Shown here piece after piece: positions 492 through 5,139 of a DNA stretch of 54,761 nucleotides. Made by a program: the position numbers and the translations under genes. The notes beneath the pieces are model-generated. The model was not told the DNA's origin. It was given only the letters and a program-made list of their open reading frames with translations, and ran no database searches. Within the stretch, counting starts at the first letter, position 1. The number at the start of each line of letters is the position of its first letter. Source of the stretch: an uncultured Pelagibacteraceae bacterium (lineage in GTDB: Bacteria > Pseudomonadota > Alphaproteobacteria > Pelagibacterales > Pelagibacteraceae); NCBI GenBank assembly GCA_902586125.1, contig CACIGI010000008.1, positions 1-54,761 of the forward strand, written 5' to 3'.

Positions 492-539
492 TGCCCCCGC
501 ACGGATTCGAACCGCGGACCTATTGATTACAAATCAATT
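492..539 (-). repeat. tRNA-Thr 3'-fragment, att-like repeat 1
   Basis: These 48 bp are identical to 4290-4337 of the intact tRNA-Thr gene, covering the discriminator base, acceptor 3' strand, T arm, variable loop and anticodon arm. The match ends right after the anticodon stem; no D arm or 5' acceptor strand follows, so this is not a functional tRNA. It is the outermost of three copies and probably marks the outer att site of the tandem islands. Confidence 0.85.
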
Positions 540-597
540 ATCATTTTTTGAATAAGTATTATTTTTCAACGTTTAAATAAATTTTCATTCAGTTTGA

Positions 598-619
598 CTG
601 CAATATATCTGCAGTGATA
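598..619. repeat. Two 11-bp-spaced repeats, left end of island A
   Basis: CTGCAATATAT (598-608) is followed directly by CTGCAGTGATA (609-619), so CTGCA recurs exactly one 11-bp unit later. The pair sits 58 bp inside the tRNA fragment and 11 bp before the first start codon. The position matches the two-unit array at 2420-2441 in island B. Candidate recombinase arm-type or regulator binding sites; the role is inferred from position and helical spacing only. Confidence 0.45.
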
Positions 620-630
620 AAGTTTTTTTA

Positions 631-1329
631 GTGAATATAGATACTAGCTTTAACGTTTATAGTGATACACCAAAAGGTAGGGACCCTGATAGTCATAGTC
701 CCACTCTAAGAAATTATCATAAATTCTTGTGGAGCAAAAAACTCCCAAATGGTTTGTTATTTAAACTAGATGAAACTATTCCAATGCGACTTCATCATAA
801 ATCAGATCTAGGTGAATTTGTTTTATCAAGTGACTCAATCGCACATACTTATAGCAATATAAAAAGTACAACGAATATTGTTAAAAAAATAGATACAAAG
901 GAGTTAGAGAAATTCGTTTCTTTATGTAGCACAATAGGTGGCTATATAATTTTTCCATCTGAAAGAATTAATAATCAAATGACAATTAATGGAGCAAGAG
1001 GGGTTAATAAAAAGATAAGAGATAGATTTGATTTAACACTAGAGTGTATTAGAAGATATTATATTAAAGAGGACAGTCCATTAAATGAGACTTTTAAGAG
1101 GTATAAACAATTCTTTAATTTGTTTGAAAGTTTTCAGGGATATGTTGATTTTTTTCTACTTCAAGATTTAGTCTCTAATGATTATTCATCTATTAAATAT
1201 TTTATACCTTTTAAATCTTTCGAGAATTATCCTTTACCAAATGATATTGAAGAATATAAGCAATATAAGTATAATTTATCGAACTTTGTTTTGGCTCGAA
1301 GTCAAAGAATGAATAATTTAGATAAATGA
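631..1329 (+). CDS. Conserved hypothetical protein (DUF6994-like), island A cargo
   Basis: Predicted 232-aa soluble protein starting with GTG. The N-terminal segment (residues about 8-60) has the pattern FNVYSDTPKGRDPDSHSPTL, then YHKFLWSKKLPNG and later HHKSDLGEFVLSSDSIAHTY, which I associate with the uncharacterised DUF6994 family; I cannot confirm this by search. No signal peptide, membrane helix or recognised catalytic motif is visible. The GTG was chosen because the family-like N-terminus begins at once after it and the next in-frame ATG (784) would remove that region; no clear Shine-Dalgarno sequence precedes it. The EEP-family gene follows 42 bp downstream on the same strand, so the two are probably co-transcribed island cargo. 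Function unknown. Confidence 0.75.
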   Translation: MNIDTSFNVYSDTPKGRDPDSHSPTLRNYHKFLWSKKLPNGLLFKLDETIPMRLHHKSDLGEFVLSSDSIAHTYSNIKSTTNIVKKIDTKELEKFVSLCSTIGGYIIFPSERINNQMTINGARGVNKKIRDRFDLTLECIRRYYIKEDSPLNETFKRYKQFFNLFESFQGYVDFFLLQDLVSNDYSSIKYFIPFKSFENYPLPNDIEEYKQYKYNLSNFVLARSQRMNNLDK

Positions 1330-1371
1330 AAAAACTTTTAGGGATCTTAGTTCTAGGTTAACTTTATTCTA

Positions 1372-2202
1372 ATGCGATGCATCTCCTGGAATATAGGTAG
1401 AAAAATAAATTTAGTTGAAGATCAACTTAAAATTATCGAAGATAAAAAACCTGATATTATCGCTTTCCAAGAAGTCACATATAATAGCTTTGGAAAAATA
1501 AAAGATTTAATTAGATCCAAGTATAAATTCATAAATTTTAGTTTAGACCTTATTATTGATAGAAAATTATTAGTGGGGCCAAGAAAACTAGGTGTGTTAA
1601 TTGCTACCAATTTTAAAACAGTTTTAAGAGATATTAATGAATTTAAACTGCCTTGGCGTGAGAGAATTCTTAATCTTGATATATATACTGGTTCTAAAAA
1701 ATTTAACTTTAATAGTGCATACATACCACCAGGCTCATCTAACGGATGGATCAAAATTGAAACTCTGGAAGGTATATTCAATGGTTTAAATAAAAATACA
1801 GATGAATCAAAAATCTTATGTGGTGATTTTAACATACCACAAGCAGAAACCTTTAAGGGACAATTAATAACTTTTGCTCAAAAAATAAAACAAAAAGGCA
1901 AACCTAAATTAAAAAAAAGTTTTAGAGGTGGAAGTGGCAGCAGGTGGGATTTAGCAGAAAGAAATTTATTTGAAAATTTAAAAACTTCAGGAATACAAGA
2001 TGCATTTAGAAAAATTAACGGTTTTAAGAAAGAAGATTATTCTTTTGAAATAATTAGAAAAGGGAAGGTGGTTTCAAGAAGAAGATTTGATCATTTTTTC
2101 ACATCAGATGATATTAAGATAAAGAAAATTGAATACCTACATTCTTATAGAGTAGAAAAATTAAGTGACCACTCTCCTATAATGATAGATTTTGAATTAT
2201 AA
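1372..2202 (+). CDS. Endonuclease/exonuclease/phosphatase (EEP) family protein
   Basis: Predicted 276-aa protein with the EEP metal-dependent phosphodiesterase/nuclease fold. The visible motifs in order are SWNIG with Asn7, IIAFQEV with Glu34, CGDFNIP with Asp152 and Asn154, RRFDHFF with Asp240, and the terminal LSDHSP with Asp266 and His267. These are the Mg2+-binding and catalytic positions of the ExoIII/DNase I/synaptojanin superfamily, so the enzyme looks active. The length fits a single EEP domain with no extra targeting segment. It is the second gene of island A, 42 bp after the DUF6994-like gene, and ends 17 bp before a three-unit 11-bp repeat array. The substrate (DNA, RNA, lipid or nucleotide) cannot be deduced; a defence or counter-defence role is speculation. 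Confidence 0.85.
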   Translation: MRCISWNIGRKINLVEDQLKIIEDKKPDIIAFQEVTYNSFGKIKDLIRSKYKFINFSLDLIIDRKLLVGPRKLGVLIATNFKTVLRDINEFKLPWRERILNLDIYTGSKKFNFNSAYIPPGSSNGWIKIETLEGIFNGLNKNTDESKILCGDFNIPQAETFKGQLITFAQKIKQKGKPKLKKSFRGGSGSRWDLAERNLFENLKTSGIQDAFRKINGFKKEDYSFEIIRKGKVVSRRRFDHFFTSDDIKIKKIEYLHSYRVEKLSDHSPIMIDFEL

Positions 2203-2219
2203 CGACTACTTGTTTGATA

Positions 2220-2252
2220 CACAATCTATTCACACTATAGTCACACACGATA
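2220..2252. repeat. Three 11-bp-spaced repeats, right end of island A
   Basis: Units CACAATCTATT (2220-2230), CACACTATAGT (2231-2241) and CACACACGATA (2242-2252) place CACA exactly 11 bp apart three times, beginning 18 bp after the EEP stop codon. The array parallels the three-unit array at 4203-4235 in island B, which begins 17 bp after its gene. The first unit also resembles the left-end unit of the same island (CAATCTATT against CAATATATC). Candidate arm-type binding sites; no function is shown by sequence alone. Confidence 0.45.
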
Positions 2253-2315
2253 GAGAAATTTTAATAATATTGAAATTATCAAAAAAAATTAACGTTGATT
2301 TTATTGATTGATGGC

Positions 2316-2365
2316 GCCCCCGCACGGACTCGAACCGCGGACCTATTGATTACAAATCAATTGCT
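2316..2365 (-). repeat. tRNA-Thr 3'-fragment, att-like repeat 2
   Basis: Fifty bp match the intact tRNA-Thr gene (4291-4340) with one substitution, C at 2329 where the tRNA has T, in the T loop/stem. It includes the acceptor 3' strand, T arm and whole anticodon arm but lacks the D arm and 5' acceptor strand, so it is not a working tRNA. It separates the two islands and would be the shared internal att site of a tandem insertion. Confidence 0.85.
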
Positions 2366-2388
2366 AAAGTTTAAATAAACATTTGTTT

Positions 2389-2441
2389 GCAACAATAATT
2401 TTAAAATAGATTTGAGTTGGCAACAATCTTGCAACAATGAT
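2389..2441. repeat. GCAACAAT repeats, left end of island B
   Basis: GCAACAAT occurs at 2389-2396, 2420-2427 and 2431-2438; the last two are one 11-bp unit apart. The gene's start codon at 2456 follows shortly after. GCAACAATCTTGCAACA at 2420-2436 is repeated exactly at 4214-4230 on the other side of the gene, in the same orientation. The arrangement suggests a DNA-binding protein occupying one face of the helix at both ends. Confidence 0.6.
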
Positions 2442-2455
2442 AGAATTTCTTTTCA

Positions 2456-4186
2456 ATGGGAAAGATTTCTGATGAATTAAAAAATTTTGCATCCAAGTGG
2501 AATGCTCGTCCTCACACAGAGTTATCTGAAAAACAAAGAGAGGAAATGATAGGCAATCAAACTTCTGGGGAAAAAAGGTTTAACAAAAAATTTATGCAAA
2601 AAGCATACTCTGCTGTTCATTCCATAATAGACAGTGGGGCAGGGTATTATGCAGATCAATCATTAAGAGAGTATTATGATGAATTTAATAGTAGATTTTG
2701 GACTTATGGATTGAAGTATGTTCCGATGTCATTCAATGTTTTAGGTAAGTTTGTGGAAGGAAATCCTAATAACTATTATTTCAATTTAAAAGATGAGGAA
2801 GATTATATATTTCTGAACGAAGACTTTTTTGAATTTATTACTGATGAAAATTTTAAAAATGATCCAAGAACTTCATTAAATACTTTAAAGGATAATATAA
2901 TTTATAATTATTCAGTAGTAGGTGATCCAAGAAGTTTAACTTTTAAAACTGATGACTCTAAATACGATTACGTTGTTTGCGGTTTATCTATGATAAAAGA
3001 CGGCAATGAATTATCTTGGATGCTAACTGGAGGTCCAATAATCTCTGATGAAGAAAAAAAAAATGGTTATGGTGTAGACTTAAATGACTCAAAATCTTTT
3101 AAGGCGTTGTATACAAAACCTGATATGTACAATAAGGATAAAAACCTTCCAGTAATGATTCCTGGTTTGGATAATGTTTGGAAAAATACTGTATTTGGAA
3201 GAACTGAGATAAATAGTTTAACTCATCAAGTTAGATATAAACAGGATGATTATGTATCAATGCTTGATACAGTTACAGATGATCCAACTATATTACCTCC
3301 TATTGATGATGATTGGCTTAATTGGAATTCTAATGATGAATTAGAGGATAATCTTAAAAAACATAACGAAAGATTAAACAGCCAACCAACTTTATTTAAT
3401 CTTGCTGAGTCATTATTTAATTTACCAGAGTATTTTAATTTTAAACTACAGTATGTTTCAACAGAAGAAGTAAAGACGAGATACGGAGCTAATAAGTCTA
3501 AAATGTCAACGAGCAAAATTTATAAATATGCTCCATCAAATCTTAAAGTATACATCAAGAAAGTAAAATCATTACAAATTATTAACCCAAATAAACCACC
3601 ACAGATTAAAAGATCATATACAAGTCCAAAATTTCAGGTTTCAGTGGATGGATTTTGGAGAAAATTAGATCCCGAAAGTTTTGGAAAAGATAAAAATGGA
3701 AATGAAACACAAGGTAAGACTTGGATAAAAGCACATTTAAGATGGAGAGATAAAACTCCTAAGCCAAAAATTATTTATCTAAAAAGTTCTATTAAAGTCG
3801 CTAAAGAAAAATTAGAAAAACTTAAACAAAAAGATGCAAAAAAATTAAAACAACCCTATAAACCTGCGCCTCAAAAAATATCTGAAAACAAATCAGAAGG
3901 TTATATTTATTTAATGAGAAATAATTCTTTAAAAATTAATATATTCAAAATTGGAAAAACGTCAAAAACACCAAATGAGAGAGCGGTTGAATTATCTAAT
4001 GCTACAGGTGTTCCAGAAAAATTTGAAGTTATCAATTACTGGAAGTCCTCTAATATCTCCAGAGATGAAAGTGAAATTTTTGCATACTTAGACAATCATA
4101 GATATTCAGACAACAGAGAATTTTTTGAAATTGAAGAAAAAAAAGCTATAGAAAAAATTGAATTTATTCTAAATAGAAATTCTTAA
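2456..4186 (+). CDS. 576-aa island protein with C-terminal GIY-YIG (T5orf172/MUG113-like) domain
   Basis: The last ~95 residues (about 482-572) form a GIY-YIG nuclease-type domain of the T5orf172/MUG113 kind: YIYLM (483-487), then FKIGKT (about 497-502), an NERAVELS segment with Arg509, a DESEIF helix with Glu residues, and REFFEI near the end. The first ~480 residues are not recognised. They are rich in Asp, Asn and Lys, with no membrane span, and contain an acidic stretch (PPIDDDWLNW) and a basic WRKL...WIKAHLRWRDKT region near 400-430 that could bind nucleic acid. A Lys/Gln-rich linker (about 440-475) joins the parts. ATG at 2456 is the first start after the repeat array; the ribosome-binding site is poor. 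It is the only gene of island B. A nuclease role in defence or element biology is possible; function unknown. Confidence 0.8.
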   Translation: MGKISDELKNFASKWNARPHTELSEKQREEMIGNQTSGEKRFNKKFMQKAYSAVHSIIDSGAGYYADQSLREYYDEFNSRFWTYGLKYVPMSFNVLGKFVEGNPNNYYFNLKDEEDYIFLNEDFFEFITDENFKNDPRTSLNTLKDNIIYNYSVVGDPRSLTFKTDDSKYDYVVCGLSMIKDGNELSWMLTGGPIISDEEKKNGYGVDLNDSKSFKALYTKPDMYNKDKNLPVMIPGLDNVWKNTVFGRTEINSLTHQVRYKQDDYVSMLDTVTDDPTILPPIDDDWLNWNSNDELEDNLKKHNERLNSQPTLFNLAESLFNLPEYFNFKLQYVSTEEVKTRYGANKSKMSTSKIYKYAPSNLKVYIKKVKSLQIINPNKPPQIKRSYTSPKFQVSVDGFWRKLDPESFGKDKNGNETQGKTWIKAHLRWRDKTPKPKIIYLKSSIKVAKEKLEKLKQKDAKKLKQPYKPAPQKISENKSEGYIYLMRNNSLKINIFKIGKTSKTPNERAVELSNATGVPEKFEVINYWKSSNISRDESEIFAYLDNHRYSDNREFFEIEEKKAIEKIEFILNRNS

Positions 4187-4202
4187 AGGACAACTTGATC
4201 CA

Positions 4203-4241
4203 GCAACAATTCTGCAACAATCTTGCAACACTTATTGTTGC
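4203..4241. repeat. Three 11-bp-spaced GCAACA repeats plus inverted copy, right end of island B
   Basis: GCAACAATTCT (4203-4213), GCAACAATCTT (4214-4224) and GCAACACTTAT (4225-4235) are in tandem register of 11 bp, followed by an inverted ATTGTTGC at 4234-4241. The last direct unit and the inverted copy can pair as a hairpin (TTGCAACA...TGTTGCAA). The array starts 17 bp after the gene and ends about 50 bp before the tRNA. It could also end transcription, but the same motif at the other end of the island favours protein-binding sites. Confidence 0.6.
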
Positions 4242-4289
4242 AAAATAAATTTTCGAATTAAAAAATTTGATAAAAAATTAGTGAAGTGG

Positions 4290-4362
4290 TGCCCCCGCAC
4301 GGATTCGAACCGCGGACCTATTGATTACAAATCAATTGCTCTACCAGCTGAGCTACAAGGGC
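4290..4362 (-). tRNA. tRNA-Thr (anticodon UGU)
   Basis: The 73-nt minus-strand gene folds as a cloverleaf: acceptor GCCCTTG pairs with CGGGGGC (with G-U pairs), the D arm has AGCTCAGCTGGTAGAGC, the anticodon loop TTTGTAA carries TGT, and the T arm is CGCGGTTCGAATCCGTG. The discriminator is A, and an encoded CCA follows at 4287-4289. It lies 33 bp downstream of rlmB on the same strand and may share its transcript. Its 3' half is the target duplicated at 492-539 and 2316-2365, so this intact copy was kept through both insertions. Confidence 0.97.
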
Positions 4363-4395
4363 ATGCGCAATAATTATTAATTATTTATTAATTAA

Positions 4396-5139
4396 TCAAC
4401 TATTTTTTTTTAGATAACTTAAATGGTGAAATACAATTGCAGCACTATTTGATACATTTAAGCTTTGAATTTTTTCATTTATCTCAATCTTAACTAAAAA
4501 ATCTGCATATTTGGATGTGTGTTTATGCATTCCTGATCCCTCAGATCCGAATAATAATATATTATTTCCTTTCCATACGATATCAGTAAAGTCTTTTTTT
4601 CCACTCCCATCGAAGCCATATACCCAAAAATTTTTTTCTTTTAGATTTTTCAGTGTGGAATTAATATTAGCAACTTCAAAAATATTAATATATTCTATTG
4701 CACCACTTGCTGCTTTATACATAAGTTTACTTTCGCTGGGGAAATTTCTTTCTTTAATAATCACTCCGTCAATATTAAAAGAGGCAGCACTTCTTATCAA
4801 AGATCCTATATTTCTTGGATCAGTTACACCATCAAGACATATTAATGTAACATTATTTCTTTCTTTGATATATTCTTTAAGGACAGGTTTTTGAATATGC
4901 TCAACTTCTGCAACATATCCTTGGTGTTGCAAATTTTCTCTTGTACTATATTTATCAAGTTCTTTTTTTGTTTTAAAATATACTTTGATATCGCTAAGTA
5001 AGTTTTTATTAGGACTTTTTTTATGAATATTTTTCTTACTTTCTTCTGTTAAGAATACCCTTAAAACTTTTCTTTTAGGGTTACGTAGTGCTTCAATCAC
5101 AGCATGTTGACCAATGATAAAAAAAGATGATTTATTCAT
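4396..5139 (-). CDS. rlmB: 23S rRNA (guanosine-2'-O-)-methyltransferase RlmB, SpoU/TrmH family
   Basis: Predicted 247-aa SPOUT methyltransferase. The N-terminal substrate-binding domain begins with FFIIGQHAVIEALRNP, typical of RlmB. The catalytic knot motifs follow: LDGVTDPRNIGSLIRSAASF (motif 1, with the Asn and Arg), LLFGSEGSGMH (motif 2) and the C-terminal IQSLNVSNSAAIVFHHL (motif 3). In E. coli the homologue methylates 23S rRNA G2251 using S-adenosylmethionine. Length matches the family. It is divergent from the tRNA-Tyr/tRNA-Gly/tuf transcript and upstream of tRNA-Thr on the same strand. The exact target nucleotide is assumed from the family. Confidence 0.93.
   Translation of the reverse strand: MNKSSFFIIGQHAVIEALRNPKRKVLRVFLTEESKKNIHKKSPNKNLLSDIKVYFKTKKELDKYSTRENLQHQGYVAEVEHIQKPVLKEYIKERNNVTLICLDGVTDPRNIGSLIRSAASFNIDGVIIKERNFPSESKLMYKAASGAIEYINIFEVANINSTLKNLKEKNFWVYGFDGSGKKDFTDIVWKGNNILLFGSEGSGMHKHTSKYADFLVKIEINEKIQSLNVSNSAAIVFHHLSYLKKNS

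Follow-up and report, generated by a model that had tools for sequence, protein, structure and literature searches.

Background

Tandem islands without an integrase are known from bacterial genomes. In Dehalococcoides, the tandem islands at ssrA are separated from one another by 3' fragments of this RNA gene; 15 of them are without an integration module and have been considered possible cis-mobilizable elements (CIMEs) (PMC3146451). The two islands described here have a similar arrangement. They are found at positions 492–4362 of a stretch of 54,761 nucleotides (nt) from an uncultured Pelagibacteraceae bacterium of the SAR11 group (GenBank assembly GCA_902586125.1, contig CACIGI010000008.1), which is referred to below as the window, and they are bounded by copies of the 3' part of tRNA-Thr(UGU). 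We propose, at a probability of about 0.73, that these islands are non-autonomous cassettes with lambda-type attachment (att) ends and that their integrase is supplied in trans. The comparisons with published systems below are drawn from the available portions of the papers cited.

The ssrA islands differ from the tRNA-Thr islands in that they use a serine recombinase and another RNA gene, and no standard plan with a promoter in attL is found in the available text (PMC3146451). CIMEs have an attL and an attR and no recombinase of their own, as is also the case here, and are regarded as moving with a related element. Unlike CIMEs, the tRNA-Thr islands have a standard minimal format that is far commoner than complete elements. 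CIMEs are regarded as decay products that are moved by accretion.

Additive flexible islands bounded by tRNA repeats are present in Actinomarinales (PMC7771536) and Methylopumilus (PMC10872708). These too are cassettes at a tRNA gene, bounded by tRNA direct repeats as in the window, and they occur in streamlined aquatic bacteria. They differ in taxa and in tRNAs, and neither arm sites nor a promoter plan nor a cognate integrase is described in the available text of either paper. Tycheposons are aquatic, tRNA-associated, cargo-bearing and have a tyrosine recombinase system, but they are 4–200 kb in length and carry the recombinase (PMC10872708), whereas the 39 cassettes counted below are 0.7–4.2 kb and are without one. 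CALIN arrays consist of cassettes that have no resident integrase and are mobilised in trans (PMC11389934); in contrast, the SAR11 cassette is bounded by a tRNA anticodon region that has lambda-type arms, and it has an apparent promoter of its own. The intS promoter of KplE1 is overlapped by attL and is repressed by the integrase, but it drives the integrase gene (PMC2951348), whereas the SAR11 cassette promoter would drive cargo. Phage satellites (PICI, VEIME, PICMI) differ from the window islands, which are without integrase, replication or packaging genes.

Among the SAR11 hypervariable regions that have been described, one has an integrase gene and one is flanked by tRNA genes (PMC2217521). 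Two other papers, in their available text, have nothing on this locus (PMC12416821, PMC7318151). No description of a SAR11 tRNA-Thr cassette family was found in the literature; subscription papers are mostly outside the coverage, which makes this weak evidence of absence. A preliminary description of the window, made from the sequence, knew of no named family with this plan. None with this plan was found in the literature surveyed, although integrase-less tandem islands as such are known, i.e., ssrA islands, CIMEs and additive flexible islands. New here are the standard ends, an apparent promoter within the att site and candidate cognate integrases.

Anatomy of the window locus

The features of the locus are listed below by window position and strand.

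492–539, plus strand: outer tRNA-Thr(UGU) 3' fragment, the left att core of island 1 (the tRNA itself is on the minus strand)
540–630, plus strand: left end of island 1, from core to start codon, compared with other islands
594–623, plus strand: promoter-like TTGACT-18-TAAAGT with a TG extension; it overlaps the repeats and was assigned by eye from the family consensus
598–619, plus strand: two 11-bp-spaced repeats (598–608 and 609–619), proposed arm-type integrase sites; taken alone, not above chance
631–1329, plus strand: DUF6994 protein, 232 amino acids (aa), with a GTG start 7 nt past the -10 element
1326–1358, plus strand: 33-nt module, a truncated signal-peptide start (MKKLLGILVLG, stop) that overlaps the DUF6994 stop codon
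1372–2202, plus strand: endonuclease/exonuclease/phosphatase (EEP) protein, 276 aa
2203–2315, plus strand: right end of island 1, containing 11-bp repeats at 2220–2230, 2231–2241 and 2242–2252
2316–2365, plus strand: second tRNA-Thr 3' fragment, the island junction, attP-like (right arms, core, left arms)
2366–2455, plus strand: left end of island 2, with repeats 2420–2430 and 2431–2441 inside promoter-like TTGGCA (2417–2422)-18-TAGAAT (2441–2446)
2456–4186, plus strand: 576-aa protein with a C-terminal T5orf172/MUG113 domain matching PADLOC candidate PDC-S57
4187–4289, plus strand: right end of island 2, containing 11-bp repeats at 4203–4213, 4214–4224 and 4225–4235
4287–4362, minus strand: intact tRNA-Thr(UGU), as found by ARAGORN; its 3' half is the att core adjoining island 2
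4396–5139, minus strand: methyltransferase gene, the conserved right flank

The preliminary description had placed two tRNA-Thr(UGU) fragments (492–539 and 2316–2365) before the intact gene, with spacings of 1,823 and 1,975 bp and only cargo in between. The fragments, the intact gene and the spacings are confirmed. A search of the bacterium's own genome with a tRNA-Thr pattern (up to 3 mismatches) shows exactly three copies, and the reversed control pattern has zero matches there. The cargo is also as stated, i.e., DUF6994 and EEP proteins in island 1 and a GIY-YIG protein in island 2, but the 33-nt module at 1326–1358 had been overlooked. The first gene of island 1 matches DUF6994 at E 3e-89. 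The T5orf172/MUG113 domain is one that we take to be of the GIY-YIG type, and the methyltransferase is presumably of the trmH/rlmB type. By ORF (open reading frame) reading, the order in the right flank is trmH-like gene, tRNA-Tyr, tRNA-Gly, tufA, tRNA-Trp and nusG. This flank suggests a SAR11 genome of the Pelagibacter type.

A family of islands with a standard plan

A 41-nt pattern of the tRNA-Thr 3' half, allowing up to 3 mismatches, was run on 300 genomes of the genus. It is present in 210, and more than one copy occurs in 77 of the 300 (own genome included, by hand count), a few of these representing a different tRNA. One region was taken from each of 80 genomes, 33 multi-copy and 47 single-copy among those listed; this is a non-random sample. 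The window and these 80 same-genus loci contain 47 intervals between successive tRNA-Thr fragments. Eight were set aside: L034, an integrase-bearing satellite; L036, L040, L044, L055 and L058, which are 4.9–6.7 kb with another left end; and L077 and L110, which are degenerate. The remaining 39 are counted here as small islands. ORFs were chosen by length, without a gene caller. The L060 cassette is almost identical to one in L039; it is retained in the periodicity and left/right repeat tests and left out of the promoter-consensus, pilin-count and arm-matching analyses.

The 39 islands are 729 to 4,245 bp in length, and 89 of their 90 ORFs (at least 80 aa) are on one strand. The first ORF starts 130–142 nt from the fragment start in 31 islands (mode 138); the outliers, retained among the 39, include spurious or later ORF starts. 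The last stop codon is 95–146 nt ahead of the next fragment in 37 of 39. The left ends align ungapped over most of their length, and most of the tRNA-Thr fragments diverge directly past the anticodon-loop sequence. Where integrases target tRNA genes, divergence past this sequence marks the crossover region, and the crossover is for this reason put in the anticodon loop. Arrays are also present in two genomes that are each one near-complete contig: L196 has two cassettes with the usual plan and L197 a single 683-bp cassette with the usual left end. Binning artefacts thus fail to explain the arrays. The plan first noticed in the window is repeated across the family, and the sequence comparisons support a family of minimal non-autonomous cassettes.

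The 11-bp repeats

Two repeats on the left and three on the right are typical of the islands. Both window islands had been described as having this layout, with an 11-bp spacing. The repeats are at the positions claimed, and the right ones are clear: as good a pattern occurs in 9 of 2,000 shuffles for island 1 and in none for island 2. Taken alone the left ones are weak, with 1,036 of 2,000 shuffles as good for island 1 (chance level) and 53 for island 2. The case for the repeats consequently rests on comparison of the family.

In the 39 islands the offset-11 identity is 0.472 at right ends, compared with a shuffled mean of 0.280 (sd 0.010), and 0.399 at left ends, compared with 0.278 (sd 0.012), in stretches that were picked after the repeats had been seen. 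Offset 11 is the highest of offsets 2–33 at both ends; the runner-up on the left is offset 31, at 0.367. The periodicity is therefore a property of the family ends and is not limited to the window. Left and right repeats of the same island also match each other, at 12.03 of 14 positions compared with 10.31 when permuted (sd 0.19), and none of 5,000 permutations is as good. Window island 1, L053 and L105 are examples of poor fit. As a sequence layout, a tRNA core with arm-type repeats on both sides corresponds to a lambda-type attachment site. The repeats had been suggested to be arm-type or directionality sites; the former agrees with these data and the latter is unsupported.

Empty sites and shared cassettes

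Alignments of the outer flanks run base-exact to the outermost fragment in island loci and to the intact tRNA in single-copy loci. For at least 8 of 30 multi-copy loci, one or more of the 41 single-copy loci represent such a base-exact empty site. For the pair L066/L085 the identity is 93.7% over 2,998 bp with a gap of 0/0; it is 93.2% over 2,139 bp for L051/L090 and 92.3% over 979 bp for L054/L087. Among the matches listed, the conserved flank of many further multi-copy loci is 0.2–2.7 kb more distant, so that something else sits between. The segments are thus not fixed in all relatives: empty alleles exist, and there are alleles with a single island or with several, in which ends of this kind enclose different cargo. 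Empty sites, single-island alleles and other cargo are what the preliminary description had proposed to look for.

The outermost cassette of L039 is 99.75% identical to that of L060 over 1,178 bp, starting at one tRNA fragment and ending in the next, compared with 84.6% over 2,718 bp in the right flank and 79.1% in the trmH-like gene. Stacks hold two to four different cassettes. The window GIY-YIG protein is absent from the other 299 genus genomes searched. A strict right-end pattern has zero matches in 20 genomes. When the first 4.4 kb of the window is compared with 50,697 phage records, 196 are matched, and the 20 listed match at the intact tRNA only. From anatomy and distribution, mobilisation in trans is likely.

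Candidate integrases

No integrase is found in the examined islands except L034, and none in the window islands. L034 (10062–17803) is a 7.7-kb element at tRNA-Thr with an integrase, a DUF5906 protein and flanking TTGACTACA repeats at 11-bp spacing. A PF00589 profile search covered 36 genomes, 34 of them island-bearing and most of them incomplete. There are matches in 30 of the 36 and in 28 of the 34, a single match in each apart from one genome with two. In 27 of the 28 positive island-bearing genomes the match has an open frame of 307–326 aa. Those read (L205:790–1743 from G000:C11, L207, L208 and L183) represent one Xer/Cre-like type; the L183 copy adjoins what by eye is a methyltransferase-like gene. 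A plain XerC/XerD identity was rejected, as all four checked are best against Xer models but far under the cut-offs. This recombinase is possibly the 'probable phage integrase' of hypervariable region HVR2 (PMC2217521). Other PF00589 matches are a 434-aa protein in G064, on a contig with tRNA-Leu, and in G039 the integrase of the L034 satellite. The scanned islands are thus mostly in genomes where no lambda-type integrase is found, although most of these genomes are incomplete.

The tRNA-Thr pattern occurs in 24 IMG/VR contigs, of which 21 look like ordinary tRNA contexts (flanks by eye); the others are L128, L129 and L135. The 8.9-kb L135 has right-arm repeats, the 48-bp core and left-arm repeats, followed by a 328-aa integrase, and also holds terminase-small-subunit and primase/helicase-like genes. 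Its contig was searched for a terminal repeat and none was found, so that the attP-like junction could also be a tandem junction. Integrases are also directly behind a tRNA-Thr fragment in AH-326-M17 (L169) and AH-326-E11 (L170, where the gene ends at the contig end). These two records are titled MAG (metagenome-assembled genome); names of the AH-326 type presumably denote single-cell genomes. Three near relatives of the L135-type integrase are found in records titled Pelagibacteraceae. The L169 integrase has five PDB matches, all named Integrase, which we take to be lambda Int. No Pfam arm-domain model matches it at E 0.01, and the PDB match starts at residue 53; the 52 residues ahead of it leave room for an N-terminal domain. 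A tyrosine recombinase at the same tRNA and with the same kind of repeats, for which a search had been recommended, is thus present in L135, L169 and L170, and in truncated form in L181.

At each of the four tRNA-Thr integrase loci, the arms agree with some cassette end in 17–18 of 22 positions, and none of 200 shuffles does as well in any of the four. Eleven integrase relatives with 27–37% identity, in other genus genomes, are at tRNA-Met, tRNA-Gly or tmRNA (by eye), and several of them have paired 11-bp repeats just ahead of the integrase start.

L181 (reverse complement, 2586–4435) has an integrase-type tRNA-Thr attL, and its integrase stops after 78 codons. Downstream are peroxiredoxin-like and methyltransferase-like genes (by eye) and a cassette-type right end at the intact tRNA. 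L181 is possibly a missing link and resembles a cassette in the making.

A promoter-like element in the left end

The promoter consensus was made from the 30 of 38 islands in which the first ORF start is at 130–142. It is TTGRCA-like, an 18-bp spacer and TANANT-like with a TG extension. The -10 element ends 6 nt ahead of codon 1 at the modal start, and the 11-bp repeats overlap the element. A Shine-Dalgarno-like motif is present in only 2 of the 30 first genes, and the internal genes are hardly richer in it, with 6 of 50. In the three tRNA-Thr integrase genes that were read, AGGAGG stands at this place instead. We infer from these motifs that the element acts as a promoter and that cassette transcripts have a leaderless start; the DUF6994 mRNA of the window would be leaderless or nearly so.

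Cargo and the 33-nt module

Type IV pilin-like starts are found in 25 of 85 cassette proteins (window and L060 left out), in six islands. These were called by N-terminus, and one was tested with Pfam. Pilin cassettes are present in L039 (10349–14352), L042, L045, L049, L057, L065 and L196 (12691–14023), with one to six genes each. The N-termini are constant and the remainders differ, which would represent mobile pilin diversity. Pfam and PADLOC searches of the 63 non-pilin proteins (window included) show two T5orf172 proteins (candidate defence PDC-S57), one DpnI-family protein, one MrcB_N + HNH protein, DUF4268, one NucS/PDDEXK-like protein, matches to candidates PDC-S11 and PDC-S02, and GNAT, trypsin and polysaccharide lyase. 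A defence role for nearly all such cargo is a guess. No integrase, replication or packaging family is found in the window islands or among the 25 listed of 40 Pfam families; phage-satellite-type genes are present in L034 and L135.

The module of 33–35 nt (ATG and a signal-peptide start) has sharp edges and is present as 21 copies, spread over 20 of the 47 islands when L036 and L060 are counted. Its ATGA is the stop codon of the preceding gene in six places. In four islands, including the window, it does not extend to a full signal peptide. In two island pairs the cargo ceases to be identical within the module, and the module is also found away from tRNA-Thr. Possibly cargo is exchanged at this module, which would act as a joint.

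Other islands

A second class of islands (L036, L040, L044, L055, L058 and L198) is 4.9–7.6 kb, with another left end (e.g., AATTCACTTCAAATTCACTTCA) and long proteins. Pfam shows no integrase in the three scanned ORFs of L036 or in four of the seven of L055. In another Pelagibacteraceae genus, islands at the same tRNA (L201:552–5681 and L200:3937–16233) have near-identical repeats at both ends. Those ends are unlike the cassette ends, and the L201 cargo resembles a type I restriction-modification system (by eye). An island at tRNA-Met (L178, 7647–9815 region) was considered as a further example of the plan and rejected, as its end plan differs. It has no ORF of integrase length and carries the same signal-peptide module.

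Alternative explanations

Several results weigh against cassettes moved in trans. Neither a circular junction nor excision is seen among the sequences examined, and IMG/VR scans with three exact cassette-end patterns have zero matches. The two genes of window island 1 recur in a related island of L051, at 82.5% over 1,882 bp; this is hardly above the 80.6% of the right flanks, so that the pair is no sign of recent transfer. The left repeats of window island 1 are unlike its right ones and not above chance, and the closed-genome cassette L197 and L053 are without clear right-end repeats. Cassette ends are matched too, at 12–17 of 22 positions, by the arms of nine integrases sited at other tRNAs or tmRNA, and for four of the nine none of 200 shuffles matches as well; arm matching is therefore not specific proof. 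Only 2 of 300 genomes have an integrase relative of at least 70%, in one case at tRNA-Thr and in the other at tRNA-Asn. A search of IMG/VR with the L135 integrase returns L135 alone. A tblastn search of phage records with the L169 integrase matches 416, none above 60% and the best at 36.2% (Pseudomonas phages); for this reason no cultured helper phage is identified. The integrase-type attL pattern occurs in 3 of 399 genomes. One of these sites has an integrase (to the contig end), that of L181 is truncated and L110 has none. As only one of three keeps an integrase, confidence in the trans-mobilised cassettes is slightly lowered and that in dead remnants raised. According to this alternative the islands are integrative elements that have lost their integrase, spread by homologous recombination via the 48-bp tRNA repeats and flanks. 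The rarity of integrases, their lack in all examined islands but L034 and the truncated gene of L181 agree with it, and cargo mosaics that break in the 33-nt module suggest homologous or illegitimate exchange inside cassettes. However, remnants should decay, and most of the 39 islands keep the end architecture, spacing, promoter-like element and cognate arm repeats. The cassette shared by L039 and L060 stops at att sites, although homologous exchange between tRNA repeats could do likewise, and stacks of two to four different cassettes suit repeated integration. Dead remnants are an unlikely explanation, though one that deserves some weight.

It is far less probable that the conserved resident tyrosine recombinase moves the cassettes with no outside helper. 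It is widespread, as 28 of 34 island-bearing genomes are PF00589-positive and nearly all of these have the 307–326-aa frame, and the four copies read are alike. On the other hand, the six genomes without a match, all drafts, also bear islands, and the recombinase is present in two single-contig genomes with one tRNA-Thr copy. The copy scanned with Pfam has its core-binding domain from residue 18, which leaves no room for an arm-binding domain. All four have Xer models as their best match, and the PDB matches are XerC-like, XerD and Cre. The cassette ends bear arm repeats like those at the L135 integrase. That the 11-bp repeats are promoter operators only, with no role in recombination, is scarcely credible. 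The left repeats do fall within the -35/-10 region, but the right repeats are behind the last gene and agree with the island's own left repeats, and the tRNA core beside the L135 integrase is flanked by the same layout. The cassettes with lambda-type ends, moved by a recombinase encoded elsewhere as the preliminary description had suggested, are supported by the family, the empty sites and the candidate integrases; the recombinase would act in trans.

A model for cassette movement

The island ends would represent the two halves of a lambda-type attP, with a tRNA-Thr core, a crossover in the anticodon loop and 11-bp-spaced arm sites. The integrase would come from a phage or phage satellite with the same tRNA target and similar arms, and would integrate the cassette, in circular form, within the tRNA-Thr 3' half. 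Because the cassette would bring a new 3' half, the tRNA would stay intact and newcomers would stack beside it. The left arm sites are inside a promoter-like element that would fire almost at the first cargo start codon; a cassette would consequently be expressed wherever it is inserted, and a bound integrase could silence the cargo. In integrase-bearing elements the integrase gene takes the position of the first cargo gene.

A broader proposal is more doubtful, and we offer it tentatively. SAR11 may have an integron-like cassette economy with no resident integrase and with docking at tRNA-Thr. Each cassette would form a single transcription unit, the promoter in attL would give a near-leaderless mRNA that a helper integrase can shut off, alleles of the arm repeats would act as compatibility groups with satellite integrases, and the 33-nt module would be a joint for swapping cargo.

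Conclusion

SAR11 bacteria rank with the most abundant cells on Earth, and to our knowledge few mobile elements have been recognised in them. A standard cassette format of very small size, sited at a single tRNA, would account for an exchange of single genes among streamlined genomes that carry no mobility genes. Pilus genes, genes for secreted proteins and genes of possible nuclease defences would be among those exchanged. The family would also be a case for how non-autonomous elements retain working attachment sites, with a promoter for the cargo built into the attachment site. The cassettes probably borrow an integrase to move genes between species.

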